From Candidatus Bathyarchaeota archaeon (lineage in GTDB: Archaea; Thermoproteota; Bathyarchaeia; Bathyarchaeales; Bathycorpusculaceae): a DNA stretch of 64,000 bases. The notes under the pieces are model-generated. The model was not told the DNA's origin. It did no database searches and saw nothing but the letters and a program-made list of their open reading frames with translations. The stretch covers positions 248,001-312,000 of the forward strand of contig JAOZIA010000022.1 in NCBI GenBank assembly GCA_026014585.1, in the 5' to 3' direction. A program made the position numbers and the translations under genes. Below are positions 4,189 to 46,200 of this stretch, piece by piece (position 1 is the first letter of the stretch; each line of letters begins with the position of its first letter).

Positions 4189-6312
4189 CTAAAATATGGT
4201 AGCAACTACGCTTTTAAGAACACCAAAAAAGCCTGCTTGTTTTGGCACCAGATTTTTCCATAACAATACAGGATTATCACGCTTGTTCACTAAAGCTTTT
4301 TTAATTAAGCCTGATTTTTCCATGTCCTCCAGCTTTGAAGCAATCAACCCTTCAGATGCATCAGCCTGGGAAACTTTTTGAAACTCTGCAATTATCTCCT
4401 GAGTAGAAAACATCTTTGAACTACTAATTGCCTTTATCAGCAGCTGGCTTTGCTCAGGAAGTTTCCGGTAAAGAGTCAGCAACTCAACTTTCTCTTTTCT
4501 ACTCAAGTACAACTGATAAATTAGCAAAGACACAAAAACTACAGCAGCACCCACTGATAACTCAAACCCATTTTGGCTGATAACCAAAGAAACAGAAGAC
4601 CACGTTTTCAAGGGTTGCCAATAAAGATTAATTGCTTGGGCTATAGGCAACAGTTGGTTTTCAGCATCTTGAAGATCATGTACTGATTTTGGATAAATAA
4701 TTAGACTCATCATGACACTTTTTGTTTGAGCAGTACCATTCACGTTAAAATTCGCTGTTTGATACCAGTACAAAACCACTTCAGTTCGATTATTGCTTGT
4801 ATACTGGAAAGAAAAGTATCGCGCGGTTATGGGAGGATTATCTTGAATCTGAATATCATGCAGGTCTAATTGCTCCACCTTTGCTTGCTGACCCTGACTA
4901 AGTGGATAATTAATAAGGCAGGTTTCCCAGCGGTGTTGAGAAGTTGAACTGACACCTATCTGTATAGTCGCTGTAACAACTGACTTATTTTCGCCTTGGG
5001 GACGATAAATATAAACAATTGCTGCATCATTTCCAGAGGTTTGCTCATACGCCTTATCTCGGTAAGAGTAAGTCAAATTATAACCAGAAATTTCAGGCAA
5101 AGCAGAAGCTGAAGAATCCACCTGTATACCTGAAGGGCTCTGAGAGATAACTTCAGGTGGACCTTGAGTTAACGCAAACACAGGCGCCTGAATTGACAAC
5201 AATAAAGCCGCGGCGATAACGATTCCTAGAACCTTTACTAAATCGGTTTTATTTAGCCTCAACATTTTTGGGTATTTGAAAAATTTACCACAGTTCAAAC
5301 AGAAGGGCAAGTTTGGGTTTTTAGGTGTTGGAGTACATATTGGACAAGGTTGCGCTGGCTTGGGTTTTTTGAAAGCCTTTTCTGTGAATACAAGCAATAT
5401 GAGAGTTCCAATGAACATCAGCGCTGTTGCACCAAAATTATGGAAAACTTGCAAGGCTAAGTCCTCGCCCCAATGATAGCCTATACCAAGAATAGTGGTA
5501 ATGCGAATTATGTTTAAGGCTATGATTAGAGGAAGACCCAAAAGGAGAATAATTAACTTATTGAGCAGTTTACCATGCGTTATATAAGCAATAAAGATTA
5601 CAAAAATCATAAACCCAATTATACTATAGATCCCCGAGCAAGCAACACTGACATTAAAATGCAGAACAGAAGCATCAGGTCGAGCTATAGTAATAACAGG
5701 TCCCGTATTATCAAAAAGAAGGGTAGCATTAAACCCGAAAAGATTCGCTAAACTGTTTGATGCGATTGCACTCAAACTAGCAAGCGCTGAACCTACAGTG
5801 TAGAGAATTTCTGATGGCGGAGGGGTTAGGAGAATTAAAAAGGATATGGGAAAAATCAACTGTTTTAGAATCTGTGCATTAAACAAAATAAGAACCAAAC
5901 TCGCGGTTAATAACGGCAGAGTAAGGACATGAAATTCTAGAGGTGTAAACGAGTAGCTACCATACCAATACAAGAGTATTGCAACGGCAAAAAGTGCGAT
6001 TCCCGCCAGCGTACTAAAATATTTTTGGAACCCGCGTTTATTTTCTTCAGTTAGCTGAAGTGACGCATTTATCATTTTTCGTTTTCGAAATAGAAGATAC
6101 GTAAAAAGGAAAGGGATCGCAAGTATATGAAAAGTTGATTCATTAGTCAGAGCGCCTTGAAAAACCATGTTTAAATCCTGAAAATAAAGTGCACCGACCA
6201 CGACAGTAATAACTGAAAATTTTAAGGCTATAGCTAATCTGTGCTGGTTTAGTGTTGATGCAACCTTGAGGGTATTGCTATGGGGATTATTTACATTTTG
6301 CATATAGTGCAC
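4189..6312 (-). CDS. Archaeosortase/exosortase with EpsI-like domain, zinc ribbon and winged helix
   Basis: A membrane cysteine protease-like transpeptidase of the exosortase/archaeosortase family, expected to cut C-terminal tripartite signals of surface proteins and transfer them to lipid. About eight helices span residues 30-310. The expected triad is visible: Cys225 in ACSG, Arg270 in LNIIR and His291 in VFHN. A Cys4 zinc ribbon follows (C323, C326, C338, C341), then another helix (about 355-375). Next come an exosortase-associated EpsI-like outer domain (about 385-570, with VVLYWYQ), a helix (about 585-605) and a cytoplasmic winged-helix-like tail (about 620-690). The longest frame starts at GTG 6312; the ATG at 6303 is equally good. 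Neighbours are membrane proteins and a polysaccharide operon. Family very likely; substrates inferred. Confidence 0.88.
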   Translation of the reverse strand: MHYMQNVNNPHSNTLKVASTLNQHRLAIALKFSVITVVVGALYFQDLNMVFQGALTNESTFHILAIPFLFTYLLFRKRKMINASLQLTEENKRGFQKYFSTLAGIALFAVAILLYWYGSYSFTPLEFHVLTLPLLTASLVLILFNAQILKQLIFPISFLILLTPPPSEILYTVGSALASLSAIASNSLANLFGFNATLLFDNTGPVITIARPDASVLHFNVSVACSGIYSIIGFMIFVIFIAYITHGKLLNKLIILLLGLPLIIALNIIRITTILGIGYHWGEDLALQVFHNFGATALMFIGTLILLVFTEKAFKKPKPAQPCPICTPTPKNPNLPFCLNCGKFFKYPKMLRLNKTDLVKVLGIVIAAALLLSIQAPVFALTQGPPEVISQSPSGIQVDSSASALPEISGYNLTYSYRDKAYEQTSGNDAAIVYIYRPQGENKSVVTATIQIGVSSTSQHRWETCLINYPLSQGQQAKVEQLDLHDIQIQDNPPITARYFSFQYTSNNRTEVVLYWYQTANFNVNGTAQTKSVMMSLIIYPKSVHDLQDAENQLLPIAQAINLYWQPLKTWSSVSLVISQNGFELSVGAAVVFVSLLIYQLYLSRKEKVELLTLYRKLPEQSQLLIKAISSSKMFSTQEIIAEFQKVSQADASEGLIASKLEDMEKSGLIKKALVNKRDNPVLLWKNLVPKQAGFFGVLKSVVATIF

Positions 6313-6480: not shown

Positions 6481-7488
6481 TTACGTTTTTTTCTCATCCA
6501 GCTTTTTCACTATTTTCTGAATTTCCCTCCTTAACGAATCAAAATAATTCTCCGCTTCAGCTTCTTCATCACTCAACAACTTCTTAAGCTCAGCAAGCTC
6601 ATCTTTTGTAAACACAGCCTTCTCTGTCTGAAGACCCAACGCCAACGCGTCTGAGTTCTTTAAGACATCTAAATCACCACTTTTCTGTGGTTCCTCAACG
6701 GTGAGGATCTTAGAAGAAACCGGCTCTGTTGTTTGAGCAGGTACGGCTTCAGAAGAAATATCAGGTTTAACAGCACTTGCCATAGGGGGTTGTAAGTTAT
6801 CTTTAGGATGTTTTTCAACTTTTATCTCATTTGAAATACTATTAGACATTGGCATGTTAAGTACAATAGAGAACTCCCTCAGTAACCCAATTGTTGCAAA
6901 CACCACTATCAAAGCCGATAAGCTCAGAGTAACAGGGGTTAAACGTATTCCCCAAGGTGTATAATTGAGCACTAAACCAGAAATAGCAATCAAAGAGATA
7001 CTTAGCCCAATACTTAACGCAGTCCGCTCCAGCTTATCTAAAGTCTCTGAAGAAGTAGGAATAGGAACAGTTGATGGGTAAAGAGCCTTAAGCAAAACAA
7101 AACCAGGCAAAAACAATACAAAAACTAAACCCGTAATTTGACGAACATAAACTAAAGGATAAACATCATCGCCAATAGTAAAAACAGCAACAGCTGTTAC
7201 AATAGTCAAAACTAGTGAAAACCAGAACCAAAAAGACTTAAACGAAAACAGGTATGCTCCAAAGGTTGCTGGCTGCTGCGGCAAACTTCTTTTTTTGAAC
7301 AAAATCTGGTTTTCATCTTTAAATTGAATCAGCAAACGGATTACTTCTTTTTCAGGCAAAGAAGATTTTTGCTGTAAAAGTTTCACTAATTCAGCAGTAG
7401 TTTTAGGCTCACTACTCTTAAGAACCTCAACTATTAATTCGCGCATCTGGCCGACTGCGACCTCTTGACTAACCATCAAATAAACCAC
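6481..7488 (-). CDS. DUF1616-family membrane protein
   Basis: A 335-residue protein. Residues 1-65 resemble a winged helix (TTAELVKLLQQ, EKEVIRLLIQFKDENQILFKK). The central region has four hydrophobic segments (about 82-225). It includes RQITGLVFVLFLPGFVLLKALYP and a loop LDKLERTALSIGLSISL, both characteristic of DUF1616. The C-terminal third is polar, acidic and likely coiled coil (about 280-335). DUF1616 proteins occur in archaeal cell-surface and glycosylation loci, but their activity is unknown. Another DUF1616 fragment lies at 17306-17881. It is in line with the archaeosortase gene and the two small membrane genes upstream, probably one transcription unit. Confidence 0.75.
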   Translation of the reverse strand: MVYLMVSQEVAVGQMRELIVEVLKSSEPKTTAELVKLLQQKSSLPEKEVIRLLIQFKDENQILFKKRSLPQQPATFGAYLFSFKSFWFWFSLVLTIVTAVAVFTIGDDVYPLVYVRQITGLVFVLFLPGFVLLKALYPSTVPIPTSSETLDKLERTALSIGLSISLIAISGLVLNYTPWGIRLTPVTLSLSALIVVFATIGLLREFSIVLNMPMSNSISNEIKVEKHPKDNLQPPMASAVKPDISSEAVPAQTTEPVSSKILTVEEPQKSGDLDVLKNSDALALGLQTEKAVFTKDELAELKKLLSDEEAEAENYFDSLRREIQKIVKKLDEKKT

Positions 7489-9814: not shown

Positions 9815-10450
9815 TTAACGAATCTTTGTAAAAATAATAACCTGGTTTAATCCAAATTCAAATTTATGTTGTTTTGATAGTTCGAAGCCAAAAGGTGCGA
9901 CCAATTCAAGCAATTGTTGTGTAGAGTATGAAGCGTGAGCGGCAGTTTTGTGCTCCTGTATTGCCTCGAAACTGGTGAGACCAAAAATTGCCAACATATT
10001 ATGAACATGTTCACCCATAGGAGTGGCCGTAGTCATTATTAATTTACCGTTATGTTTTATCAATTTTGAAAGCTGACCCAAAAGCACCTCAGGACACTTT
10101 AAATGTTCTATAACAGCAATCAGCAACACAGTGTCAAAACGTAAAGCAGACACCTGTGGGGGCAAGTCTTGTTTATCAACATCCACCCAATAGAATTCCA
10201 AAGAAGGATATTTTTTGCCCAAACCTTCTATTTCAGGTTTGTTTGTATCAACCCCAACATACCTGACATGATTTTCTTTTGGAAAATAATGCAATATCTC
10301 AGCAGGTCCACATCCTACATCTAAGACGACTCCTGAAGAGTATCTACTAACAACTAATGACCGGTTTTTTCTGAGATAAGAGGTGAAGGGAATTAGCTTT
10401 CTAATTATCGAAGTTTGTTTTATTATTTTGTTTGAAGACAATTTATACAT
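9815..10450 (-). CDS. Class I SAM-dependent methyltransferase
   Basis: A 211-residue methyltransferase with motif I VLDVGCGPAEIL (about residues 41-52), an acidic residue after strand 2 (VGVDTNKPE) and a motif IV-like RFDTVLLIAVIEHL. It resembles small methyltransferases of polysaccharide clusters that modify sugars or lipid carriers. It is the last gene of the minus-strand polysaccharide operon, 17 bases after the multi-pass membrane gene. Substrate unknown. Confidence 0.85.
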   Translation of the reverse strand: MYKLSSNKIIKQTSIIRKLIPFTSYLRKNRSLVVSRYSSGVVLDVGCGPAEILHYFPKENHVRYVGVDTNKPEIEGLGKKYPSLEFYWVDVDKQDLPPQVSALRFDTVLLIAVIEHLKCPEVLLGQLSKLIKHNGKLIMTTATPMGEHVHNMLAIFGLTSFEAIQEHKTAAHASYSTQQLLELVAPFGFELSKQHKFEFGLNQVIIFTKIR

Positions 10451-10467
10451 AAAAACACCTTATAACA

Positions 10468-12102
10468 TTAATTTCCAGGAGGTAATGGGATCTCAACGAA
10501 TGTACTATTTTCGTATAATTTAATAAAGGGATTATCATAGATCTTATTAAAAAATGCAAAGTTTGATTCATTTAACGGCACATTGTTGTGATAATACAAA
10601 AATTGATTAACATCTGCCTGAGAATAAACAATAAATTGATAATACCTCAGAGGTTGCGGCAAAACTGATTCATCGGATATAGGAGATAACACATTCAAAT
10701 GCACAGGGAACTGAACAGAATATGGGGAAATAAACCACATTAAATAGGTTGTTTTTGCAGTTAGGGAAAAATACGGTGCCCCTGCTGGGACATGATTGAT
10801 ATAAAAGGAAGCTCCCGCGATTTCAGATGATGATACACCTTCCACAGTAGAGCCGCCGTAATGAGCAGGAACATTAGCCACAATCAGCAGGCATACCAAA
10901 AACACCAACACCGCAGGTTTTTTAGAGATAAATTTAACGCAAATATAAGATAAGGGAATTAAAGCAAACATAAAAAACCGGATAATTGTCTCCGACATTC
11001 CATAAGCAGTTGCCGCGATAGGCAAAGCCATTCCAACAACACATAACAGCCAATATTTTTCTGTGTTCTTTTCTCGTTTTAATATGACCGAAAAAACAAA
11101 AATAGCTAAAATCGAGAGCGTTATAAGCATAGTAAAATATCTAAAATCATTTGTAAAAATCTGCGATGATGATCCCGGCAGCACAGCTCTACCAAATTGA
11201 GAGCTCAATAAAGTAGGTAACTCCTCTAAAGTTCTTGATGCAGCCCAAGTTGTAAAAGGAGTTGCCCATAGAACGAGATAAGCTACTTCTGAAACAAGAA
11301 GCAAGAAGGCCATCACCCGCCCAGTTTTTATTTTATTAAAAAGTAACAAAGGTACAAAACAAGACAACAACATAATTGATGTAAAAGCGTGGGTGAAAAT
11401 TGTTGCACCTAAAAGAACAAAAACAATCACTACCAATGACCGATCATGACTCTTATAACCAAAAGCAAATCTGCTAAAAATCAGAAATACTAGACCAAAA
11501 AACACAAAAGCGACTTCTTGTGGGCTGAAATAGTTACCAGCTACCCACCACCAACTTGCAAGGAACCAAATTGCACCCATAATGGAATTGGATGAATTTA
11601 ATTTGAGTCTGAATATAAGATAAACTATAACACCAATGAGTAAAGCAAAAAGAGGCGGGGCATATTTGCAGATAAGTACAAGAGGGATACCGGTTATTGA
11701 AGTCAAAATTCCGGTAAAATACAAAAATCCTGGAAAATTATGATATTTATAAATACTGTAGAGGTCCTCTGGGAGGTTACCAGTGGTAGCGAGTTGTTGA
11801 CCTTCTGATGCAGGATAGCTTGTTCCCAACAACGTTGCATTTTCTTGAACAACTGTTGGTACCACGAACAAGTATACCACTACTAAGGCAAAAACAATTG
11901 CTAACTGTTTTTTTGATGACCTACCAAGAAATGAAAGAATAAGAACAGCTAACAGGCCCACCCAATAAAATAAAGGAAGTTGGGAAGCAATACCATAATC
12001 AGAAACCATAGTGTATGGTATAGAAGTGGTCGCCATTGTGCCTATGGCTCTTGCAATTGATAAAATGAGAAGAGACCCAAATATAAAGAAACGTGTGTTC
12101 AT
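10468..12102 (-). CDS. Multi-pass membrane protein, probable glycosyltransferase or polysaccharide polymerase
   Basis: A 544-residue protein with about twelve hydrophobic segments between residues 5 and 415 and a C-terminal soluble part of about 130 residues. The layout resembles GT-C glycosyltransferases and O-antigen/EPS polymerase-type proteins. A large loop (about 80-125) precedes helix 4. No signature is clear enough to name the enzyme. Its place between the pyruvyl-transferase-like gene and the methyltransferase supports a role in surface glycan assembly. Confidence 0.6.
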   Translation of the reverse strand: MNTRFFIFGSLLILSIARAIGTMATTSIPYTMVSDYGIASQLPLFYWVGLLAVLILSFLGRSSKKQLAIVFALVVVYLFVVPTVVQENATLLGTSYPASEGQQLATTGNLPEDLYSIYKYHNFPGFLYFTGILTSITGIPLVLICKYAPPLFALLIGVIVYLIFRLKLNSSNSIMGAIWFLASWWWVAGNYFSPQEVAFVFFGLVFLIFSRFAFGYKSHDRSLVVIVFVLLGATIFTHAFTSIMLLSCFVPLLLFNKIKTGRVMAFLLLVSEVAYLVLWATPFTTWAASRTLEELPTLLSSQFGRAVLPGSSSQIFTNDFRYFTMLITLSILAIFVFSVILKREKNTEKYWLLCVVGMALPIAATAYGMSETIIRFFMFALIPLSYICVKFISKKPAVLVFLVCLLIVANVPAHYGGSTVEGVSSSEIAGASFYINHVPAGAPYFSLTAKTTYLMWFISPYSVQFPVHLNVLSPISDESVLPQPLRYYQFIVYSQADVNQFLYYHNNVPLNESNFAFFNKIYDNPFIKLYENSTFVEIPLPPGN

Positions 12103-12128
12103 GCATACACCAGCTGGCTAATGACTGA

Positions 12129-13427
12129 TTATTTGCTGACCAAACATACAATCAATTTTTCGATCTTCCGTTCATCGGTTAGACAAAGGAAATCAACTTT
12201 CTGTGTTAATTTATGGCTAATCTCACTTCGTTGCGACCACACAAAATCTATTTTAAGCAACAACTTTTCCATTGTAAGATTATTAATATTAATTCCAACC
12301 TGGGAAAGATCTAATTTCTCAAGTAGACCTGCTTGTTTATGTTCATAAATAATCTCAACAAATGGCACACCTAACGCAGCAGCAAAAATACTAGGATGCA
12401 TCCTATTTGCAATCAACAGATCCAACTGTTTAATTAAATAAACAAATTCGTCAACAGACTCAGTAATTACAGTTTCAACGTTTTTTTCTTTTCCCTGTTC
12501 CATTTCAGTTTGAATCAGCTGACTTAAAAAAGCATCATCTTCTCGCCCAGATATGCTCATTGCTTTTCCTTTTGTAGTTTGACTGGGCAACAGAAGTATT
12601 TTTAAATCATCCCTTCTTAGAAGCTCCCGTAAAGTTCCACACAAAACATGCACGTAACGTTTTTTTTCATTTTCAGACATGCCAGCAACAAAACAAGGGG
12701 ATACTCCTACGACTGTTTGAATTGAAGGATTTTGTTTGAGATTAGGCCTAAAAAAGAAAGCCATATCAATAGACTGAATTATGCAGGAGGTGACACCCAG
12801 TTTATTGAGAGTCTGTTTAGAGATTTGTTCTCTAACGCAAATAACATCCATATTGCCAAAAATAAATTTAGCAAACATTTTACCAACAAAAGTATCAAAT
12901 GGCCCCACGGACTGAGGAAATGTTGTAAAGCGTTTTCTAAAAATTTTTTTGGCTATTAAAACATCCATTGAACCCCAAAGCAACATAAGAAAATTTGCAA
13001 GAGTATCCCATAGAGTCCTTTGCCGATAACGTGAACCTTCTACAAATGGCTGATGACCAGACGACAACACAAGATTCGCTTCTTTAAGACCAACCAAATA
13101 ATTTTTTCGATAAATAGGCGCTAAATTATGTTTTATACAAAGTGCAGATAAAACAGAAAGATATGAAGTTAAAACAAAAAGAAATGGATAAAAAATTAGC
13201 GGAGCATCATGACCTCTTATTTTAAAATCAACTAAGGGAGAATGAACTTTGATATTACTATCCATTCGCTGAAGCAAGTCATTAGACCACCAAGTGGCAA
13301 CAGATATGGCACAGTCAGGAAAAAGACGTCTGAGCATGGCTATTTCGCTCTTAATAATAGCTTGATCGCCTTTATTCCCTACATCACATGCTTGTGTTAT
13401 AAAGAAATTTAGCAACTTAGTCATCAT
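12129..13427 (-). CDS. Polysaccharide pyruvyl transferase family protein
   Basis: A 432-residue member of the WcaK/AmsJ family (PF04230). The start is ITQACDVGNKGDQAIIKSEIAMLRR, the usual N-terminal motif with N-x-GD-x-A. The C-terminal half has the expected D-LLIANRMHPSIFAAALGVPFVEI segment. The family includes enzymes that add ketal pyruvate to exopolysaccharides. It lies in a polysaccharide operon next to a ferredoxin/F420-beta-like protein, a pairing also known in bacterial EPS loci. Acceptor sugar unknown. Confidence 0.85.
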   Translation of the reverse strand: MMTKLLNFFITQACDVGNKGDQAIIKSEIAMLRRLFPDCAISVATWWSNDLLQRMDSNIKVHSPLVDFKIRGHDAPLIFYPFLFVLTSYLSVLSALCIKHNLAPIYRKNYLVGLKEANLVLSSGHQPFVEGSRYRQRTLWDTLANFLMLLWGSMDVLIAKKIFRKRFTTFPQSVGPFDTFVGKMFAKFIFGNMDVICVREQISKQTLNKLGVTSCIIQSIDMAFFFRPNLKQNPSIQTVVGVSPCFVAGMSENEKKRYVHVLCGTLRELLRRDDLKILLLPSQTTKGKAMSISGREDDAFLSQLIQTEMEQGKEKNVETVITESVDEFVYLIKQLDLLIANRMHPSIFAAALGVPFVEIIYEHKQAGLLEKLDLSQVGININNLTMEKLLLKIDFVWSQRSEISHKLTQKVDFLCLTDERKIEKLIVCLVSK

Positions 13428-13452
13428 TTTTCACTTTTCAATCATCAATAAT

Positions 13453-14772
13453 TCAAGATAATTTTAAAAGAATGGAAAACGCAATGTTATAAAGCCTAAA
13501 TAACGGCAAGGGAACATATTTTGGAAGATTCTTAAAGAACCTATTTTTTTGTGTTCGTATAGAGTAAATACGAATGACATTTACTGCATATGAACTGACG
13601 CTGGGCTGCCTCTTCGAAAGTAAACTACAAGCAGGTGATAGTTTATTCATTTTTTGCGCTAAAGATAATCTAAAATCTTGATTTGCAGATTTGAATTTTA
13701 AAACATCACATTGGGATTTCATAACCCTTTCAGCAGAAATAGGGTGGATATTAATCATTTTTTTTATGTTCGCATCTTGAATAAATTGTTGACCGATTGG
13801 GGTTCTTGATATTATCAATGAATGACCAAGTGTACAACTTTTAAATTCAGGAAGCCATGCATCACCCATACTAACATCAGCAAGTTGATTAAAATGGTCC
13901 TGACAAAAAATGCAACGCCAAGGTACAAAAAAGTAAGAATCGAAAAGAGGATAATACGATTTAAATGATCCGGAATAAGGCAAGTTATAAACTAAACCAG
14001 TGGTTGTTTCCACATACATTGACCCCGGTCGCCCATGACTTCTGTAACGCAATCGTTGAACTTGACTGCAGTTAATCTTTAATTTTGACAACACAACTTC
14101 TGTAGCTTTGGAATTATTTGAATGCGCACAGAAAAGACCAATTGTGAGAGCAATTCTTTTTTCAAATTCGGGGTGAATCTTCAAAAACTTTCTTAAAGCC
14201 TGAATATGACAAGGTAACCCTACAATCGCAAATCGGCCAGTCTTATTACTAAACAGATTTCTTAACTCTAAATTAGTTGGGCAAGGACAGTATTTTGAAC
14301 CTGAAGCAGAAAGAATTTCATCCACCGTCCTTGCAATGAATGGTTCAGCCAACAAGGGATTATCTGTACTCATTCGAGATACTAAGGCACCATCAATCAT
14401 TTTGTTCTGTAACGCATAAATCAATAGCTGAGTTACAATTCCACCAGAAGACACATGGATAGGTTTGTTAAAATTATTTGCATTTCCACTGTAGCACTTG
14501 ATATAATTACCGAAAATAGAATCTTTTGAGAGTTGATGAAATTTGGATTCATTTAAACTATGAAAATTAACTTCTATCCCAGGACAGATCTGTATGCAAA
14601 GACCACAACTTATACATAGAGCAGAGTTAATTTTTGGAATAAACACATCATATGCGTCTTTTTTAAGAGTAATGGCTTTTTTAGGGCAGATACTTATACA
14701 GGTGCCACAGCTAATACAAAGATCCGATTCAACAACTCTATTGATATTGAGTCTTCGTTGATTCATGAACAC
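13453..14772 (-). CDS. Ferredoxin / coenzyme F420 hydrogenase-dehydrogenase beta-subunit-like protein
   Basis: A 439-residue iron-sulfur protein. The N terminus holds two 4Fe-4S motifs (CISCGTCISICPK, then CISCGLCIQICPG, about residues 18-65). The FrhB-like N- and C-terminal domains follow, with further cysteines (KYCPCPTN, WRCIFCQDHFNQLADVSMGDAW). Such proteins transfer electrons with flavin or F420. In polysaccharide operons they are often beside PF04230 pyruvyl transferases and may drive a reductive sugar modification. The longest frame starts at GTG 14772; ATG at 14766 is the alternative. Substrate unknown. Confidence 0.85.
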   Translation of the reverse strand: MFMNQRRLNINRVVESDLCISCGTCISICPKKAITLKKDAYDVFIPKINSALCISCGLCIQICPGIEVNFHSLNESKFHQLSKDSIFGNYIKCYSGNANNFNKPIHVSSGGIVTQLLIYALQNKMIDGALVSRMSTDNPLLAEPFIARTVDEILSASGSKYCPCPTNLELRNLFSNKTGRFAIVGLPCHIQALRKFLKIHPEFEKRIALTIGLFCAHSNNSKATEVVLSKLKINCSQVQRLRYRSHGRPGSMYVETTTGLVYNLPYSGSFKSYYPLFDSYFFVPWRCIFCQDHFNQLADVSMGDAWLPEFKSCTLGHSLIISRTPIGQQFIQDANIKKMINIHPISAERVMKSQCDVLKFKSANQDFRLSLAQKMNKLSPACSLLSKRQPSVSSYAVNVIRIYSIRTQKNRFFKNLPKYVPLPLFRLYNIAFSILLKLS

Positions 14773-14782
14773 TCACTAGAAG

Positions 14783-15685
14783 TCAATAAGTTTTACCAAC
14801 AATATAGCCCAAAAAAACCATAACCGTTGCAACCCAAAGTGTCCAACAACGAGAAGGACCTGTTCGTATATTACCCTGTAGCAACATTTTTGAGGAACCC
14901 AAAAAAAGGTTGTGCAAATAGGTTTTTTCAGCTCCAAGTGCAATCTTTGTTTGGCTGCTACTTGAGATAAACGCTTTTGAGAAACCTTCAGAATATGAAC
15001 GTTTCAGCACATAATTGACACTGACTCTATTGGCTGAAACTCTATGATAGACAACTGCAGTGGGGTCATAGAGGATTGATGTTCCATGCAACTTATTTGT
15101 TGCACGTATGCCGATTTCGGTATCATCGTGACCCATCAGTTTATTCCCGACTCGACCGGTTTCTGTGCTGAAGTAGCCTACTTTTTCAAACATACTTCGC
15201 CTAAAAGCCATGTTGCAACCAATGGGGTTTCGGATAGGTGCTTTCTGGGTTGGAAGACCTTTATAGGAACACCCGACTACCCAGTATAATTCTTCAGGAA
15301 ACCATACAGGATTTTTAGATGGCCAAACAGGAAGTATTTTGCCGCCTACACCAATAACGGAAGGGTATTCGAAGTTGTTTATGAGGTTTTGGAGCCAGCT
15401 CTTATCAGCTGTGGCGTCATCGTCTATGAATGCGACAAATTCAGAATCAGTGTTTTTTATGCCAGCATTTCTAGCTGCTGATAAACCAAAAGCATCACTC
15501 ACAACAAGTTTGACAGATGAATCTAACCGTTTTTTGTAATAGGAAACTAAGGACGCTTGGGGGTCTAAAACCAGAATTATCTCTTTGGGAGGAAGAGTTT
15601 GTTGCTTAAGAGAAGCAATGCAATCCATTACATCGTTTGCTCTCTCAATTGAGTAAACAGAGATTATTACGGAAACACTTCTCAA
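14783..15685 (-). CDS. Family 2 glycosyltransferase with C-terminal helix
   Basis: A 300-residue GT-A fold enzyme. SVIISVYSIERANDV at the N terminus binds the nucleotide sugar, and the metal-binding motif is FIDDDATAD (about residues 90-98). A later GHDDTEIG provides the acidic catalytic region. The last 25 residues form a likely membrane-associated helix. It starts at TTG 15685 with GGGGTG upstream on the minus strand. It would transfer a sugar to a lipid-linked glycan in the cytoplasm before flipping. Confidence 0.88.
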   Translation of the reverse strand: MRSVSVIISVYSIERANDVMDCIASLKQQTLPPKEIILVLDPQASLVSYYKKRLDSSVKLVVSDAFGLSAARNAGIKNTDSEFVAFIDDDATADKSWLQNLINNFEYPSVIGVGGKILPVWPSKNPVWFPEELYWVVGCSYKGLPTQKAPIRNPIGCNMAFRRSMFEKVGYFSTETGRVGNKLMGHDDTEIGIRATNKLHGTSILYDPTAVVYHRVSANRVSVNYVLKRSYSEGFSKAFISSSSQTKIALGAEKTYLHNLFLGSSKMLLQGNIRTGPSRCWTLWVATVMVFLGYIVGKTY

Positions 15686-15710
15686 AAACGCTACACCCCA
15701 ATGGAATTAG

Positions 15711-17309
15711 TTATGGATTATTAGACCCATATAGAGTATTGAAAATTTTATGTTGATAACCAAACAATGGTCTAGCGATAAATCTCACCAAGGGCAACTT
15801 GCCAGTCACTTTTTCTAATGATTCAATTTCAGCTTCATTAACTATCCCCATTATTGGCATCAAAGTTATGAATATTATCAGATACATTAATCCACCAATT
15901 AGCAAGACGGCGATGAAGTTTAGGGATAAAAAGACTAATAAAACCAATGGTGGAACAGCGGAAAGGAGGGAAATTAAGTATATTCGAAGGTCAGGTCCGA
16001 AACTGAATTTTATCTTAAGTTGCCGTATTGCAACAATGGCAGCGTAGACTGACGCAACTATGGTCGATACTAAGAAAGCAACTATGACACCGACAACATC
16101 GTAGAGAGCAGCAAGTGGTGGTGAGAGGACAAGCAAGAGTACAAAATTAATCAGTGTCATGTTCATGGTTAAACGGGTTTTGCCTATACCATTAAACACA
16201 CTCATTAATGTAAGAGAGCCAATTATTGCAAGTAAAAAGACGGAACAGTTCAGGGACAAATACAAAGCTGCTGAAGTGTAAGTTGCTCCATAAATCAAAT
16301 TAACAATTGGACCTGAAAAAATAATCACTGAAATGGTTATAGGTATGACTATTAGGCAGGTGTATTTGTTTGCTTTATTAAAAAATGTGCTGATAACTTC
16401 AGGTCTAGCAGATTCAAGTTTTGAAAATGCAGGTAGAAAAGCTGTTGTTAAGGACGCGGAAAGAATAGTTAATAAGGCTACAAAATTGTATGCTGCTCTA
16501 AAATTTCCTATAGCCACATCAGAAGTGAAAAAGGCAAGAATAACTTGCTGATAAAGAGGAAAGAAACCGACTAAGACAACAGAAACATATACAGGCATGC
16601 CATACTTTGCGAGAAGTAAAAGAATCTGGCGTCCATTTTCATTGGCAATTCCCCGCTTAATGCTTCTTTTATTGGGCTTGAGAAATTTGATGAACAGTAT
16701 AGCGCTTCCAACAATTGAAGCTATAAGAAAGCCTCCAACAAAACCAATCAGTGCGCCAGTTACACTAAAACTGAACAATACAAGGGCAACTTGTAATATT
16801 GTAGTGAGAACTGCTCGGATAGTTGTGTTTAAAGCACTATATTCAGACTGGTCTAGTCCTACGAATGCGGAATTGGCTGTTGTAAAGAATACTTGAAAGA
16901 CCACTGAAAGGGACGCTATCTGTATGAAGAAAACAAAATCAGGCCTATTTATGAGAAGAGCGAAATAGTTAGCAAAAACTATGCTAAAAATGGAAACTGT
17001 AATTCCGATAGCTAACCTAAAAATTAGGCTGTACTTGATGATTGCAGGAATACGTTCGCTTTTTCCTTCTGTACGAAGACTGGCGGCAAATTTGGTAACA
17101 CCTGCATTCATGCCTAAATCTGTAAGCAACGCAAGAAGCATAGGAACTACAAGAACCAGATTGTACTGACCATATAATTCAGGTCCCAGAAATCTCCCCA
17201 TAAGTATGGCAGAGACCGCCAAAATTATGCTAGCTAAAGTTGCGCCTGAAAACAGAAAAAAGCTGCCGCGTGCAGAGTCTTCTGTTACTTGTGAGATGTC
17301 AGTAGTCAT
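15711..17309 (-). CDS. Polysaccharide flippase (Wzx/MATE-like, oligosaccharide flippase family)
   Basis: A 532-residue membrane protein with about fourteen hydrophobic helices and the N-terminal family pattern GSFFLFSGATLASIILAVSAI followed by MGRFLGPELYGQYNLV. It should flip lipid-linked oligosaccharide across the cytoplasmic membrane. The start codon overlaps the stop of the upstream DUF1616 gene by four bases, so translation is coupled. A 40-residue soluble tail ends the protein. Confidence 0.9.
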   Translation of the reverse strand: MTTDISQVTEDSARGSFFLFSGATLASIILAVSAILMGRFLGPELYGQYNLVLVVPMLLALLTDLGMNAGVTKFAASLRTEGKSERIPAIIKYSLIFRLAIGITVSIFSIVFANYFALLINRPDFVFFIQIASLSVVFQVFFTTANSAFVGLDQSEYSALNTTIRAVLTTILQVALVLFSFSVTGALIGFVGGFLIASIVGSAILFIKFLKPNKRSIKRGIANENGRQILLLLAKYGMPVYVSVVLVGFFPLYQQVILAFFTSDVAIGNFRAAYNFVALLTILSASLTTAFLPAFSKLESARPEVISTFFNKANKYTCLIVIPITISVIIFSGPIVNLIYGATYTSAALYLSLNCSVFLLAIIGSLTLMSVFNGIGKTRLTMNMTLINFVLLLVLSPPLAALYDVVGVIVAFLVSTIVASVYAAIVAIRQLKIKFSFGPDLRIYLISLLSAVPPLVLLVFLSLNFIAVLLIGGLMYLIIFITLMPIMGIVNEAEIESLEKVTGKLPLVRFIARPLFGYQHKIFNTLYGSNNP

Positions 17310-17881
17310 AGAGCATCAACGGTAGATGTCAGTTTAAGCCAGAAGTAAACATATCTGTTTTGGTATTGCAATGTGTCTAAGTCAGGATTGAAAGCCCAAA
17401 GCTCGATGAGAATTTGATAATAGTACCCGCTGTTATCCTGGTCGAACTGGGCGATTTTGTTTACAGTAAACACTTCACCATTAATGTTTATGTTTTGAAT
17501 TAATAATTGATGATTTGCGGCAGACACATCAGTTATGCTAAAGTTTAAGGGAACCATCCAGTTTGTATTGTCTTTGATGAGTGCGCGGTACTCATATATG
17601 GATGGTAAGGATGACGGCGTCTGGGTTTCCTCATTGGGGAGCGCGTCCGTTTGATTTTGCAGTTTTAGATAACAGACATAGTAAGTAGATGCACCTAAGT
17701 GATTGCCTACACCCAAATAGACAGTATAATCCTGATTAACCACTATGTTAAAAGGCATACCCTGCGCCATCTCGTCTGGTCCCAACACGTAAAGTTCAGA
17801 AAACGCTTCACCAGCAGGGAGGTCTTCTAAGATGTACCCCAAAACCGGTGAAGCAATAAGTAAAACGCCGATTAAGCCCAC
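17306..17881 (-). CDS. DUF1616-type domain protein with N-terminal anchor
   Basis: The outer domain of DUF1616 is recognisable by AFSELYVLGPDEMAQGMPFNIVV and VYLGVGNHLGASTYYVCYLKLQ. A shortened hydrophobic N terminus is present when translation starts at GTG 17881. In-frame sequence upstream extends that helix (FSDYQIIFVAVGL) back to a CTG at 17923 with no ATG, GTG or TTG available, so a CTG start is possible. It overlaps the flippase by four bases. The 191-residue protein lacks the multi-helix part seen in the DUF1616 protein at 6481-7488; the two may be functional partners. Activity unknown. Confidence 0.7.
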   Translation of the reverse strand: MGLIGVLLIASPVLGYILEDLPAGEAFSELYVLGPDEMAQGMPFNIVVNQDYTVYLGVGNHLGASTYYVCYLKLQNQTDALPNEETQTPSSLPSIYEYRALIKDNTNWMVPLNFSITDVSAANHQLLIQNININGEVFTVNKIAQFDQDNSGYYYQILIELWAFNPDLDTLQYQNRYVYFWLKLTSTVDAL

Positions 17882-22831: not shown

Positions 22832-24313
22832 TTAGATGGAAAATTTATTAAAAAAAGCACTTTTTCTTTTATGAGAAACTATGTAAAAGGATAAAAAGGC
22901 GGCAAAACAGACAAAAAGTGCAGCAATACCAGCCCAAGCATACTCCGGCACAGGAAATGGACCAGCAGTAGGAGATGATGTGGGGGGTTGAGTGGAAGTA
23001 GGATTCGTAGTAGATGTTGGCTCTTGTGTAGAAATACTATCTAAAATTGTAAAGTTAACATCCACTTCCGCCGCTAAGGCAGTACTATTTTCAGATAATA
23101 AGCAAATATAAGCTATTGCTTCGCCATTGAAAGCCCATTGAGGAATAAAGATTGATGCAGTATATGTGTCATTTACCGGTGTTTCACTGTTTTTTATTGT
23201 GTATGAGTTTATGGGGATTTGTGCATGGTCAAATAAGGTTATATCTATTTGATGCCACGAAGAGAAGTTACTCAGGCTGCGTGTAGGTATCGTTATTGAA
23301 ATGTTTTCTAGCTTGTGGACACTTGAGGGAACTTGAACGCTGCTGATTATATCGTTTGAACGAGTAAACGTAAATCCAACAGTATCATTTAAAAACACGC
23401 CAGAAACAGTTGCTGACGCATTAATAATCCAGATTCCAACCATCTCAGCCTCGATTTCACTCGGTGGAGGCAACCTAAATTCGAAGGAAGCATAACCAGA
23501 CGAATTTGTCTGCACTATTTCAGATTTAAATTGAGTCCCATTATAAGTAACTACAAAGGACACATCTACACCCTCAACAGATTCAGTAGAATGAAGAAGC
23601 CTAGTATATGCCTTAACAAGTTCCAGCGAACGATAAACCCCACCGCTTGCACCTATTCCGCCTTTATCAGTAAAAGCGTCGATTTTGCCAGTATCAGGCA
23701 CAACAGGGGCAATTACAGTCACTGTTGGAGAAGTTATGGGTAGAGAAATTTTTGGGTATACACCATCGCTTAATGCTGGACCGGTTAATGTTGCACCAGT
23801 AAATTGAATATTTGCATCACCAGTACCAACAATAAGGAAAGTAAAATAACACAACTCACCCGCAGTAAGGCTTGAAGCGCCATCATCATCACCAAGAATA
23901 CCATCACCAACCCCACCCTGAAGAGCCCCCACGGTATTGTTAATGACGCCTGGAGCGAAGAGCGTGGTATAGTCTCCATTGTCTCTGTCTCTAAGATATG
24001 TACCTTCTTTGATTTTGGTTAAGTTAACGACATCTGGATTCCACGTTACAAGGTCTATTCCCCAACCCCAGATGTCAGCAGCGTCACTGATAGTGAGACT
24101 GACCTGAAAGGTGGTTGAACCAATTGTGTATGTCCCGTCCGGGTATGACCATGATGATTCCGTTGTATCTCTTTGATAAACATTAAATGTTCCTGACGTG
24201 GTTGCGGAAACAAAGCTGTTGACTGATAGTAAAACCATTGATGCCACAAGGAGTGTTAGGCAAAATAATCCAATTATCTTTTTATGGCTGATTTTATTGG
24301 TAAACATAATCAA
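22832..24313 (-). CDS. Cohesin-domain surface protein with VPEY C-terminal sorting tail
   Basis: A 493-residue exported protein: signal peptide (about 1-37), a cohesin-type beta-sandwich (about 40-205, with DIWGWGIDLVTWNPDVV and ELCYFTFLIVGTGDANIQF), and Ig-like regions (about 210-430). A Ser/Thr/Pro linker follows (about 430-452), then a tripartite tail VPEY (455-458), hydrophobic helix and basic end SHKRKS. The tail has the layout of PEP-CTERM-type signals cut by exosortases or archaeosortases. Cohesin modules bind dockerins; a dockerin-like module is on PstS at 26557-27744. It is about half identical to the cohesin part of the 25769-26446 protein. TTG 24313 opens the frame; ATG at 24307 is an alternative. 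Function inferred. Confidence 0.75.
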   Translation of the reverse strand: MIMFTNKISHKKIIGLFCLTLLVASMVLLSVNSFVSATTSGTFNVYQRDTTESSWSYPDGTYTIGSTTFQVSLTISDAADIWGWGIDLVTWNPDVVNLTKIKEGTYLRDRDNGDYTTLFAPGVINNTVGALQGGVGDGILGDDDGASSLTAGELCYFTFLIVGTGDANIQFTGATLTGPALSDGVYPKISLPITSPTVTVIAPVVPDTGKIDAFTDKGGIGASGGVYRSLELVKAYTRLLHSTESVEGVDVSFVVTYNGTQFKSEIVQTNSSGYASFEFRLPPPSEIEAEMVGIWIINASATVSGVFLNDTVGFTFTRSNDIISSVQVPSSVHKLENISITIPTRSLSNFSSWHQIDITLFDHAQIPINSYTIKNSETPVNDTYTASIFIPQWAFNGEAIAYICLLSENSTALAAEVDVNFTILDSISTQEPTSTTNPTSTQPPTSSPTAGPFPVPEYAWAGIAALFVCFAAFLSFYIVSHKRKSAFFNKFSI

Positions 24314-24426: not shown

Positions 24427-25401
24427 TTATCTTGCTTTTCTGAGCCAGAAAACTGAACCAGCCACGACAATAATTGTAACTGCAACAATAATACCTAAGA
24501 TGGTAACGGGCAAGTTTTTGGTAATGTCAATAACAACGGGAGTAGAAGATGGTGAAGAGTCAGACGGTGTAGGAGATGCAGTGGTGTCCTTTTTGACTTT
24601 TATTGTAACTGAGGCATCATCAGTGCCATATGAATCTTGAACTGTTAACAAGATATCATATGTTCCAGTGTTATTGAAAGTGTAGGTAGCAATCATGCCT
24701 GTTAGAGTTTGGGCTGTGCCATCAGTAAATGTCCATGTATAAGTGGTATCATTTCCCACAGACACTGTTCGTGACGCATTAAGAATAACGGGGGTTCCCT
24801 GTACGACTGTTTTGTTGTCTCCTGCGCTAGCGATTGGTGGACCAGCAGTTGCTTCAAGAGAAATTTTGGCAGTAAAAGAAGTTGATGAAGGAGTTATATA
24901 CTCCATTTCATTATTAGCCGTTCTTTCATAAATTAAACGTATACCCTCTAGTTTTAGTGGAGAGTCTGAACATGGTTTTATCACTTTAAATGTTAAAGTT
25001 GCTAGCGTTCCACTTCCACTTGCAAAGGTAGTAAGACTACCCAACACAGCATCAGCTATGGTGCATTTTCCTGGAGGATATCCTACTGAGTCCTCCGCAG
25101 GTAAAACTCCATAGATAGTGGTAATATCTTGGTCTGAAAAGAAAGAGCCTTCTTGAGGAATCCCAACTAAAGACAGACACTCTGGATCCCATGTTACGTT
25201 GGCATCCCAGCCCCAAAGATGTTCAACTGATGAAATCTCGATTGCAACTGTGAACTCTTCATTGAGTTGTTCAGCAGTATACTCAGCTGGGTCAAACGTT
25301 AGAGTAGGAGCATTTTGAGCGTTAACTGGTTCTATGTTCACAGCAAGAAATATTGATAACGCAGACAGGATTAAAAGGCAAGCGATAAATTTTCTGTTCA
25401 T
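24427..25401 (-). CDS. Cohesin-domain and PKD-domain surface protein
   Basis: An exported membrane-anchored protein. I place the start at ATG 25401 (MNRKFIACLL), which gives a proper signal peptide and has an AGAGG ribosome binding site; the frame is open upstream to 25536. After the signal comes a cohesin-type domain (about residues 30-185 of the shorter form, HLWGWDANVTWDPECLSLVG, TLATLTFKVI). A PKD/Ig-like domain follows (about 190-280, TYTWTFTDGTAQ, GTYDILLTVQDSYG), then a Ser/Thr/Pro linker and a C-terminal helix ending LRKAR. It lacks the VPEY motif of its two neighbours, so it is probably held as a plain transmembrane protein. Likely a dockerin receptor on the cell surface. Confidence 0.75.
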   Translation of the reverse strand: MNRKFIACLLILSALSIFLAVNIEPVNAQNAPTLTFDPAEYTAEQLNEEFTVAIEISSVEHLWGWDANVTWDPECLSLVGIPQEGSFFSDQDITTIYGVLPAEDSVGYPPGKCTIADAVLGSLTTFASGSGTLATLTFKVIKPCSDSPLKLEGIRLIYERTANNEMEYITPSSTSFTAKISLEATAGPPIASAGDNKTVVQGTPVILNASRTVSVGNDTTYTWTFTDGTAQTLTGMIATYTFNNTGTYDILLTVQDSYGTDDASVTIKVKKDTTASPTPSDSSPSSTPVVIDITKNLPVTILGIIVAVTIIVVAGSVFWLRKAR

Positions 25402-25631
25402 TTTTTGAATCCTCTCGGAAAAGTTATTTTCTGCCGATTTAGTGATACTTCTTGATTCGGAATCAACTGAGAATTTATGCGTGAAATAAACCATAGGTCT
25501 GAGAAAACTTGCATCAATTGACGCCTCCACTTGCACGCTGGATTATTCCTATTGCTAATAACTTGATGCGATAACATATTTTTTATCCCTTCTCCAATCT
25601 GAGTTTGGCAATTTTTCTGTTGCCTATTTCT

Positions 25632-25768: not shown

Positions 25769-26446
25769 TTAGATGTGTTTGCTGAATGATGGGAATTTGA
25801 AGCTTTTCTTGAAGGCTGCGAATGCAAAGAATGCTGCGAATGCTGCGCCTAAAGCTGCAAGAGCACCAACGAGGTATTCAGGAACCACGAATGGTCCTGT
25901 AACGTTAACGAGTGGTGCGTTCACTGTAACATCGCCATCATTTAAGGTTGCACCGCTAAACTGAATGTTTGCATCGCCAAAACCGACAATCTCGAACTTG
26001 AGATAGCATAATTCGCCAGTCTCAAGAGTTGAAGCGCCATCTTCGTCACCTAGAATAGCATCGCCAATTCCTGCAGAAATAATGCCAACGTCATTATCAA
26101 TTGTGCCTACAGCGAAGAGTGTGTTATAGTCGCCATTTTCTTCATCTATTAGGAAATCGCCTTCTTTCACCTGAGTGCAGTGGACAACGTCAGGGTTCCA
26201 AGTAACAGTGTCAAAGCCCCAACCCCAAACCTCAGAAGCGCCACTAATGTAGACGCCGACTTGGAAGATTGTGCCCATATCACTTGGCATGTATGTCCAT
26301 GTTGATTCAGTAGTTCCTCTCTTGTAGACATCGATTGAACCGGTTGCAGAAGCAGAAGCAACGCTAGCAAGGACTAGTGGGACGATTATGAGCAAAGCTA
26401 ACGACAGTGTAGCTATGGTTTTTCTTTTATAGATTTTAAAGTTCAT
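25769..26446 (-). CDS. Small cohesin-domain surface protein with VPEY C-terminal sorting tail
   Basis: A 225-residue exported protein that is little more than a signal peptide (about 1-34), one cohesin-type domain (about 36-180) and a tripartite tail. The tail is VPEY (188-191), a 23-residue Ala/Phe/Gly-rich helix, then lysine-rich. The cohesin domain is clearly paralogous to that of 22832-24313 (EVWGWGFDTVTWNPDVV, ELCYLKFEIVGFGDANIQF). The start has a good AAAGGAG site. It is immediately downstream of pstS on the same strand, so it is probably co-expressed with PstS. Best candidate for the partner of the PstS dockerin-like module. Confidence 0.78.
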   Translation of the reverse strand: MNFKIYKRKTIATLSLALLIIVPLVLASVASASATGSIDVYKRGTTESTWTYMPSDMGTIFQVGVYISGASEVWGWGFDTVTWNPDVVHCTQVKEGDFLIDEENGDYNTLFAVGTIDNDVGIISAGIGDAILGDEDGASTLETGELCYLKFEIVGFGDANIQFSGATLNDGDVTVNAPLVNVTGPFVVPEYLVGALAALGAAFAAFFAFAAFKKSFKFPSFSKHI

Positions 26447-26556: not shown

Positions 26557-27744
26557 TTACTTGTAGTTGCGTGCAAAGATGTATGTGTCTGTAGGACTGT
26601 ACTGACCGTCAGCGTTCATGTCGACATAGGGGTTAAGTAAGCTTGAACCATAATTGCCTGCAAAGTAGTATAGATCTAATGGTGAAATCGCGTTGTCAGG
26701 GATGTACTGAGTCTGACCTGGGCGTGCTCCGTTACCTGTACTGATGTCGCTTGTGAAGTCGTCGCGTAGCATGTTCATGTAGCCTTCACCTGAAACGAAG
26801 TTCTCTTCACATAGATCTTCGACGTATGCGTAGTCACCTTGGTAGTCAGGGTTGGTTGCGTTTGGCAGTTTCATGAAGCTGATCCAAACTGATTGAGCTG
26901 CATCTTCTGAGCCAACTGCTGGAATGCCGTCAGTGAGGTGCCAGAGGTTGCGGATTGGTGTGTATAGACCTGCAAGAACGTTTGCTTCTGTTGGTTCGTA
27001 GTATTCGCCTTCGGCTGCGTTGTAGATGTTAATTGGGTAGAGTCCACCGAGGTGGAGGAAGCCCATGCCGATGAAAGCAATTGAATAGTCTTTAGTAGCA
27101 CCTGTTGTCATGTGGTTGTAAACGTCAATGTTGTTTGGCAGTTCTGTGAATGGAGTAGTTATGTCTGTAAGTTCTAGATCTTCTGGGTCAAGGAAGAAGT
27201 TATAGAAGCAGTCAGTAGTTCCGGATTCAAGGTCGCGTACGACTCTGTCGATTGGAGTTGCTGGTGCAGTGCCGACAAGGTAGCCTGCTGGAAGATCATC
27301 CCAGTTGGTGTAACCGCCGCAGTAAATGTCTGCAACTTCTTGCGTTGTTAGGTCTGTTTTCAGCCAGTTGTTGCCAGGACCGATAAGAATTGCAATGCTG
27401 TCAATACCTATAGACCAGATTTGAGCGTTATCAGCACCAGATAGGGCCCATTCAGTTGATTTGGGAAGCCTTGACATTGAACCGACGTCAGAGTAAGGCG
27501 TATCTACCTGATAAACACCTGGAAAAGCACCGCCGCTTCCGCCTGAATTGACCTCAACAGAAGTAATTGCAGGATAATGGTTCATAAAAGCAGTTTTTGC
27601 AGCCATAGAGACTGGATAAACTGTTGAAGAACCTCTCGTTACTAATTCGTGTGATGTTAGCAAAGCCTGTACTGGACCGACCATTGCAAAAGCCATTAAT
27701 GCAATCAAAGCTATAGCAACAATAGATTTTTTAATAGGTGTCAA
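26557..27744 (-). CDS. pstS: Phosphate-binding protein PstS with C-terminal dockerin-like module
   Basis: An exported PstS-type solute-binding protein of 395 residues that captures phosphate for PstCAB. Phosphate-site motifs are visible: RGSSTVYPVS, NSGGSGGAFPGV and RDLESGTTDCF. The last 50 residues are not part of the PstS fold. They hold a canonical dockerin calcium loop D375-x-N377-x-D379-G...D386 followed by TYIFARNY. A degenerate first repeat (D350...D357, LYYFAGNY) precedes it. No lipobox or C-terminal membrane helix is seen, so the protein needs another anchor; three cohesin-type surface proteins are next door. The start is TTG 27744 with an AGGAGAAAGG site. PstS identity is sure; the dockerin call is strong from the motif. 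Confidence 0.88.
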   Translation of the reverse strand: MTPIKKSIVAIALIALMAFAMVGPVQALLTSHELVTRGSSTVYPVSMAAKTAFMNHYPAITSVEVNSGGSGGAFPGVYQVDTPYSDVGSMSRLPKSTEWALSGADNAQIWSIGIDSIAILIGPGNNWLKTDLTTQEVADIYCGGYTNWDDLPAGYLVGTAPATPIDRVVRDLESGTTDCFYNFFLDPEDLELTDITTPFTELPNNIDVYNHMTTGATKDYSIAFIGMGFLHLGGLYPINIYNAAEGEYYEPTEANVLAGLYTPIRNLWHLTDGIPAVGSEDAAQSVWISFMKLPNATNPDYQGDYAYVEDLCEENFVSGEGYMNMLRDDFTSDISTGNGARPGQTQYIPDNAISPLDLYYFAGNYGSSLLNPYVDMNADGQYSPTDTYIFARNYK

Positions 27745-43295: not shown

Positions 43296-46200
43296 TTAAT
43301 GTTTGCGCTGTCTTTTTAAGACAACAAACGCTCCTGCAATTATCAAAACAGCAACAACTACCAAGATGATCCACATGGTAAAGTCGGCTGCTGGCTGGAC
43401 CGTGAAGGTTATATCTAGCTGGTGCGTGCTAAAGCTGACTGTAAAGTAGACGTAGTAGTTTTGGCTGTCCTCTGTGAAGCTTTGGTTTGGTGCTGCTACA
43501 CCATCAATATTGACAACTGGGTTAACGCCGTTTGGAATTTGGCTTTTAGATATGGTTATGTTGGTGTAGCCTGAGGTTCCAGTTTCACCCTGCAATGTAA
43601 AGGAGAGGGTTATTTGAGAGTTGGATTGGTTTGTGGTTAAGGTTATTCCTGAGAACTGCGCCGCTGTTATGTTACCATTTATTGTCAAGGTTACTGTTTC
43701 TTCATTGTCGTTTGTGCCGTGTATTGTTTGAATTGAGCTTGGTGCTATGTTCAGGGTGCTTGTTCCAGTGTGACCGTTTCCATCATCAACAGTTATAGTT
43801 GTTGAACCGTTTCCTCTAAGAGTAACTTGAAGCGTCAAAACACCGTTTGAGAATGTGCCATTTGCAGGGCTGATTGTGCCTTGGCTTGTGCTTAACGTTA
43901 CGGTGCCGTTGAAGTTGGTTGCAGTGTTTCCTGCAACGTCCTTGGCAGTTAAGGTTATTTCAAAAGGTATACCTGAGACACAACTGCTTGGAGCATCCAC
44001 GTTGAAATTATAGACATCACCCGCGGTTACGGTGAGCATTGTAGACACTGTTTTTTCTGCGTATGTTGTTGAAACGTTATAGTTTCCTATTAAACCTGCA
44101 ACCACAGTGTTTCCGTTAATTAATTCACCATCCACCGCGTACTCTGAACCACTGGAAACGTCCCAGCTGTTGCCAAATACATCAAAGGCAAGCGTGACAT
44201 AATTTACTGAGTTACCCGATTGGACACTGGTTTCTTGTGGGCTAAGGGTTATGTGGTCTACAGCTTCTGCGTGAGCATTGATTGTAAAGGTTGTTGATGC
44301 TGGGAGCACGTCTGTGCTTGTAGCGGTGAGTTCGGGTGTTCCAGCAGCAGTGTCTCTATAGTACAAGTTTACGGTGCTTTCGCCTTCAGGAATTGTTAAG
44401 AAAGTTACCTGGTTTGTGCCTGCTGCGTCACTGTAAAATGCGCCTGTTGTCGAGCTTGATGCCAAGTCCACGGTTACACCTGAAGTTACAGCACCATAAG
44501 CATCCTGCAACTCCAAAGTAATCACTGAGGACATTTGATTAACAGCCAATGGCTGTTCGCCTCCAACAGCGAAAACCAAATATGTACTGTAACTTTCGCT
44601 ATATGGCAAATAATCATAAAGTGTCCCAAGGGTGGCATTGTTGAAGCTGCCCAACAAGTCAAAAGTGGAATCGATGAAACCGTCATAGTTTGCGTCGGTT
44701 CCTGTTTGGCTTGGACCTGTTCCGTTGGGGTAAGCCCAAAAGTTGCCTCCGATCCTGCTTGGGTTACCGAAGATGCGGTTGCCGTTCTGCAGGGTTGTGT
44801 TTAGGTTAAGGATTACATTGTTGAAAGGCAGGTTTAAGCCTGAGTAGGTGTTGTTGAAGCAGATGGGGTCAACGTATGCTGTGTCGTTTATCATGTTGTT
44901 GTAGAAGTAGAGTTTTTGACCTGTAAAATCGTCGGGAACTTGATTGACGATGAAAAAGAACGTGTAAATGTTGTCACGGAATATGTTGTCGTGCACAAGA
45001 GTTGTTGCTGTGTCATTGTTTGTTATATCCCACATTAATGCATCATAGTTGTTTTCAAATAGGTTGTTGGCTATTGTGCAGTTTGAATTTTGGGCTTCTA
45101 CACCACCGCAGTAAGCTGCTTGAACTAATCCGTTATTTCTGAAGATATTGTCTGTGATGTTTACGTTATTTAATAGTTCACTGTAGATTGCTTGACTATT
45201 GTCAGTCATTATGCAGTTGTGAATTGTACCGTTTGCTGCTGTGAAAATTTCTGTGCCCCAACCATCACCACTCATGTTAAGGTTTGAAAGCTCAAAGTTG
45301 AAGCATTCAGCTATTGTTACTCCATCTATGCTGTTGTTGTTTAGTATGCAGTCTTGAATTGTTGAGTTTAGGCATTCTATGAGCTGTATTCCTGATCTTT
45401 CTTGATTGTTATTTGCTGTGCAGTTTTGAATTTGGGTATTGAGTACTTCTGCACCGTAAAATCCGATCAGCCCATTGTTGTTAAATGTGCAGTTTCTCGC
45501 GCTTACTCCATCAGCAGCTTCAATAAAAGCACCTAAATATGAGTTATTATTCAAAAACACGTTGCTGAAAGTAACGTTGCCACCCCCGAAAGTGTACACA
45601 CCTGAAAAACTATTATTGCTCAAATTTGAATCGGTCAAAGTAAAGTTATTAGCAATTCCAAATATGCCCACCATACTGTTTTCAACATGCAGATTTCGTA
45701 TAGTAATGTTAGAAACTATATCAAGCAAAACCGCCCTAGATGAACCACTTGCATATGTTTCTATCAGGTAGTTTTGACCGTCAATGTTAACGTTATCTGA
45801 AGCAACAACTATGGCGGTCTCTTCGCCGCTATATGGAGCAGCCACTTTGTAGTTGCCTGGTTGCGTAATTATGGCGGGCAGAGTTATGGGTACCCAACTG
45901 TTCACATCAAAATCTAAGCTGTAGGGGTGATAGTCATAAGCCACTCCGATAACTGCATTACCAAATAGTTCGAAGGGGGCATCAATAAAGCCGTCTTGGT
46001 CGGCATCGGTACCTGTTTGGCTAAATCCTGTACCGTCAGGGTGTGCCCAGAAGTTTCCGCTTACCAAGGGTCCGTTGCTGTATGGTCTTATTCCAAGTGC
46101 AATAGTTCCGTTTAGACTTAGGAAGGACTCATTGAAAGGTATGTAGGTGCCTGAAAAGTTGCCGTGGAAGCTCAGTGGGTCAACGTATTGGGTATCGTTA

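Follow-up and report, generated by a model that had tools for sequence, protein, structure and literature searches.

Among the closest described systems is ArtA/PGF-CTERM of Haloferax volcanii, in which ArtA processes PGF-tailed proteins and joins the new C-terminus to lipid (PMC7157517). It has in common with the Candidatus Bathyarchaeota locus described below a Cys/Arg/His membrane sortase of the same superfamily, a tripartite C-terminal signal and archaeal surface proteins as its clients; however, the signal here is VPEY followed by an ACFAAF helix instead of PGF, the enzyme is about 700 residues long with added zinc ribbon, EpsI-like and winged-helix-like parts, and the ArtA model matches, weakly, only two of 18 members of this long sortase family and not the enzyme of our locus. 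ArtC/PEF-CTERM (cited in PMC5244752) shares a P-E-aromatic motif ahead of the helix, but our enzyme scores 22.4 bits with the ArtC model against a cut-off of 100, the conservation of the helix is different, and the PEF-CTERM model found no match among 22 aligned tails. With the ArtB model (VPXXXP-CTERM) the enzyme reaches 21 bits against a cut-off of 150. The EpsI-fused bacterial exosortases (XrtD/VPLPA and XrtW) share the layout of EpsH and EpsI-like domains and the nearby polysaccharide genes, and both are among the best NCBIfam scores of the long sortase, the XrtW alignment covering residues 30–533; yet these scores (72.5 bits against a cut-off of 425 for XrtW, 64.4 against 400 for XrtD) fall far short, and the long sortase is archaeal, adds a zinc ribbon and a winged-helix-like domain, and goes with a different tail. 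PEP-CTERM/EpsH (PMC1569441) was likewise discovered through matching phylogenetic profiles of tail and enzyme and has an exopolysaccharide context, but differs in tail motif, lineage and extra domains. A search of the open-access literature (subscription papers lay outside its scope) found no paper on a PEY sorting tail or on a sortase pairing in Bathyarchaeota.

The window, i.e., the whole stretch of 64,000 nucleotides that was analysed, encodes two secreted proteins that end, as the initial annotation had described, in PF[VP]VPEY with a hydrophobic stretch and then a basic tail behind it, each with a signal-like helix at its N-terminus. The features needed for the comparison are as follows.

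4189–6312, minus strand: long exosortase/archaeosortase of 707 residues, comprising an EpsH domain, a zinc ribbon, an EpsI-like domain, a membrane helix and a C-terminal winged-helix-like domain.
9815–17315, minus strand (same strand as the sortase): polysaccharide locus with methyltransferase, pyruvyl transferase, FrhB-like, GT2 and flippase genes.
22832–24313, minus strand: secreted cohesin-like protein of 493 residues with a C-terminal VPEY tail (VPEY at residues 455–458).
22835–22951, minus strand: predicted VPEY sorting tail of the 493-residue protein (residues 455–493), tail-model E=1.5e-15 in its own genome, leave-one-out E=5.4e-11.
24427–25536, minus strand: third cohesin-like protein, with a PKD domain and a plain C-terminal membrane helix, no VPEY.
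25769–26446, minus strand: secreted cohesin-like protein of 225 residues (sequence GPFVVPEYLVGALAALGAAFAAFFAFAAFKKSFKF...) with a C-terminal VPEY tail (VPEY at residues 188–191).
25772–25885, minus strand: predicted VPEY sorting tail of the 225-residue protein (residues 188–225), tail-model E=4.3e-12 in its own genome, leave-one-out E=3.5e-11.
26557–27744, minus strand: phosphate-binding-type protein (PBP_like_2, PstS-like) adjoining the cohesin-like proteins, within a pst-like cluster with pst-type transporter genes.

Judging from these sequences and their relatives, the VPEY tail very probably serves at the C-terminus as the sorting signal for a membrane sortase of its own. That sortase, a member of the EpsH superfamily about 700 residues long, would be the enzyme at 4189–6312 and/or its paralogue. 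Tail and sortase make a new enzyme–signal pair inside the known exosortase/archaeosortase superfamily, and we hold the chemistry with less confidence than the pairing. The tail is mostly found in genomes with the long sortase and its gene often adjoins that of the enzyme, and therefore tail and enzyme are probably parts of one undescribed system that anchors proteins at the archaeal surface.

The sortase at 4189–6312 belongs to the exosortase/archaeosortase superfamily by PF09721 (109.8 bits, cut-off 25.7; E=1.9e-31) and TIGR04178 (61.5, cut-off 23), and all 18 long-sortase members match the superfamily above curated cut-off. Its triad, Cys225/Arg270/His291 in CSGIYS...NIIRI...FHN, is invariant in the 18 aligned members, as is H-x-W-E-x-C of the EpsI-like domain (HRWETC at residues 460–465), and the zinc ribbon is formed by C323, C326, C338 and C341. 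Matches to other domains are scattered among the members: HTH_12 in one (4e-4), a double zinc ribbon in four and DUF3485/EpsI in two. In NCBIfam the enzyme fits only the general superfamily, all named exosortase and archaeosortase models remaining far below cut-off, and a PDB search with the sortase profile returned no relative. Its named relatives come from Candidatus Bathyarchaeota, including Bathycorpusculum, and the long sortase is apparently an undescribed subfamily, of about 700 residues, of a known superfamily. The initial annotation had called it an archaeosortase with an intact Cys/Arg/His triad; the triad is confirmed, whereas by score the enzyme lies closer to bacterial-type EpsI-domain exosortases than to ArtA, ArtB or ArtC. 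Polysaccharide genes are the usual company of exosortases. The genome carries a second long copy (C5:130327, 45% identical) and one short archaeosortase (C2:451212, CAGIES type).

The tails were discovered with a DNA pattern, [L/I/V/F/M]PEY followed by a hydrophobic helix, in 61 related genomes irrespective of their sortase content; a reversed-pattern control gave no match in the own genome, where the real pattern gave five. The C-terminal matches fell into two sorts, a coherent ACFAAF family and a small number of bare VPEY tails whose helices are unrelated. The consensus of 22 aligned tails of the former reads FVVPEYxLGxLxALxACFAAFxxFK, with PEY invariant, and each of the two window tails was still matched when it had been omitted from the model (leave-one-out values above). 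None of the sorting-signal models of Pfam and NCBIfam fits the tails (best NCBIfam E 0.011, single members only), in agreement with the original view that the motif is unlike the PGF, PEF and VPxxxP types. True tails score 53–70 bits with our tail model, bare ones 2.7–10.1, and the diagnostic unit is VPEY together with G-x-L-x-A-L-x-A-C-F-A-A-F, the VPEY letters alone not being diagnostic. A search for the four letters alone was discarded as a tail detector for being too loose, since three of its six matches in the own genome are not tails. Contig C21 of that genome was read in stretches and the remainder searched by models and patterns; nine tails were found at E<1e-4, with variants including LPEY, LPES and TPET, and the richest relatives have 18, 15 and 11. 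The further tails that the initial annotation had proposed to look for thus exist, although the set numbers about ten to twenty and not dozens. The carriers are unrelated secreted proteins (NosD beta-helix, CBM96, DUF1349, calcineurin-like metallophosphatase, molybdopterin-oxidoreductase-like and Ig-like), which fits the picture of a modular sorting signal. A NosD-type protein of a related genome (G007; L126 9940–13566) has the VPEY tail, unlike the 1400-residue beta-helix/NosD-like surface protein of the window (43296–47498, minus strand), which ends in a plain anchor.

A survey of 256 genomes of Bathyarchaeia identified 40 with the long sortase and 31 with tails: 22 have both, 18 the sortase only, nine the tail only and 207 neither (Fisher p=3.4e-14, a descriptive value that is inflated by relatedness). 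The 40 long-sortase genomes hold 96 of the 111 tails, the tail model having been seeded from genomes nearly all of which have the long sortase. The comparison inside the genus is more telling because presence is patchy there: tails occur in all nine sortase-positive genomes and in two of 23 others (p=2e-6, descriptive, relatedness being ignored). Both exceptions look like relics or decay, one genome (G005) having a single VPEY tail and, of the long sortase, only a broken N-terminal fragment (L249 1459–1752), the other (G018) carrying its tails on frames of 45 and 46 residues. Nine tail-positive genomes of the class have no full long sortase; among them, G146 (completeness 88%, contamination 8%) yielded six good tails but no long sortase, and G143, G160, G193, G195, G103 and G132 have one tail each. 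A sample of 398 genomes across the phylum gave tails beyond the class in one genus only (four genomes, weaker matches); a long sortase, whole or in part, is encoded by three of these four, one copy being cut by the contig end. In genus g179, which lies outside the class, Ser replaces the catalytic Cys in both long and short exosortase homologues (PSSGLFS, PSAGVHS; L286 1468–3645, L288 157–2424, L289 1423–2394, L291 255–1253), the EpsI-like HxWExC motif also has Ser, and the tails read VVPEF or VVPES.

The tails could alternatively be ordinary C-terminal membrane anchors that are never cut and are alike by chance. The own genome does encode many plain C-terminal anchors, including that of the third cohesin-like protein, which is not a predicted substrate, and cleavage is something that we infer; however, none of these plain anchors contains a VPEY-type motif, PEY is invariant and the helix is conserved across unrelated proteins, and the tail's occurrence follows that of a single sortase family and the surroundings of its gene, all of which makes uncut anchors an improbable explanation.

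Tail and long sortase also meet in the order of genes: in 11 of the 22 genomes that have both, a tail gene is found no more than 3 kb from the long sortase, where 0.35 genomes would be expected; the window sortase itself has no tail gene within 3 kb, the nearest being about 17 kb away. Many long-sortase genomes without matches to the VPEY model have another tail on the same strand beside the sortase (VPEV, VPEL, VPEI, VPDA, IPDY or IPEH), and such differently worded tails were found at 14 of 27 long-sortase loci, whereas control sequence totalling 397 kb yielded six tails; VPQY tails adjoin the long sortase in two more genomes. In a phylogeny of the sortases, those of the VPEY genomes fall into a single clade (SH-aLRT 100) that includes both copies of the own genome, and the VPEV and VPQY types form a separate clade of the same family. 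Nearly all VPEY tails go with a single sortase clade; the outlier is G238, whose VPEY-like tail is encoded away from a sortase that lies outside the clade. It is plausible that enzyme and substrate were at first paired one to one, and that in Bathycorpusculum and its close kin a single enzyme came to serve many substrates.

Could the VPEY tails instead be substrates of the short archaeosortase (C2:451212)? That enzyme is encoded in the own genome, and tails of the generic IPEF kind, as well as some of the bare VPEY ones, are found in genomes with the short type only, but many sister genomes of the genus have the short type and lack ACFAAF tails, and it is IPEF tails that lie beside two short types (L060, L064), whereas VPEx-G tails lie beside long types. 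The short sortase fails to explain the VPEY pattern because many genomes possess it without such tails, and we regard this alternative as very unlikely. IPEF-type tails are found beside short archaeosortases with CSGIDS or CSGVES and also in the own genome (L060 2361–3410, L064 355–1383, L012 1411–2589), which suggests that IPEF tails and the short archaeosortase are a second, separate enzyme–signal pair. That the tail was inherited within one paralogous protein family merely sharing genomes with the sortase, a thought prompted by the 51% identity of the N-terminal domains of the two tailed window proteins, is already contradicted by the variety of ectodomains, since the other tailed proteins have no detectable ectodomain in common and the third, homologous cohesin-like protein has no tail, and its probability is negligible.

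The pairing of VPEY tail and archaeosortase proposed in the initial annotation is therefore supported by the 256 genomes, by the comparison inside the genus and by the frequent adjacency of the genes, with the signal corrected to VPEY plus helix and the enzyme to the long subfamily. Its expectation that VPEY tails keep to genomes with the archaeosortase holds in the main for the true tails, but taken at its word it is refuted by its own standard, since some tails that read [VIM]PEY and continue in an unrelated helix come from genomes that lack the long sortase (L093, L101, L102).

By analogy with ArtA, cleavage by the long sortase probably takes place at VPEY, and the protein is then probably joined to a membrane lipid or glycan. 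The secreted proteins would cross the membrane by means of their N-terminal signal and be retained by the C-terminal helix, whereupon the long sortase may recognise VPEY and the adjoining G-x-L-x-A-L-x-A-C-F-A-A-F helix. The active Cys, together with Arg and His, would cleave alongside the motif and hand the freed C-terminus to an acceptor, for which a membrane lipid or a surface glycan is the likeliest choice. In this way cohesins, proteins that bind sugars and beta-helix proteins could remain exposed on the cell. A membrane protein with DUF1616 (2.2e-27) and an N-terminal stretch that looks winged-helix-like is encoded next to the sortase (6481–7488, minus strand) and is a possible partner of it. 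The zinc ribbon of the sortase, if cytoplasmic, and its winged-helix-like domain might bind DNA and signal to surface-protein or polysaccharide genes how many tailed proteins the membrane carries; we consider this rather unlikely, but if true, the long sortase would also regulate transcription.

The initial annotation had labelled the two tailed window proteins 'cohesin-type'. A Pfam search of the three homologous proteins (the one at 24427–25536, sited between the two tailed ones, is their more distant homologue) left their domain unnamed and gave no cohesin match, whereas a profile built from the three matched only structures of cellulosomal ScaB cohesins in the PDB (3l8q, E=1.1e-4), and the label is reasonable because nothing but cohesins was matched there. 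The C-terminus of the adjoining PstS-like protein (26557–27744, minus strand), DMNADGQYSPTDTYIFARNYK, looks like a calcium-binding dockerin repeat; a Pfam search of it returned no dockerin match, and by its sequence it is a possible candidate for a dockerin-like element.

Some of the presumably displayed proteins are cohesin-like and are encoded beside a phosphate-uptake cluster, which hints at a non-cellulosomal scaffold. The enzyme clades with their matching tails (VPEY, VPEV, VPEL and VPQY) offer a natural series from which the recognition rules of archaeosortases could be derived. For the Bathyarchaeia, which are abundant yet almost uncultured archaea, the pair would provide a defined surface-anchoring system, by which their surface proteins could be listed from sequence.
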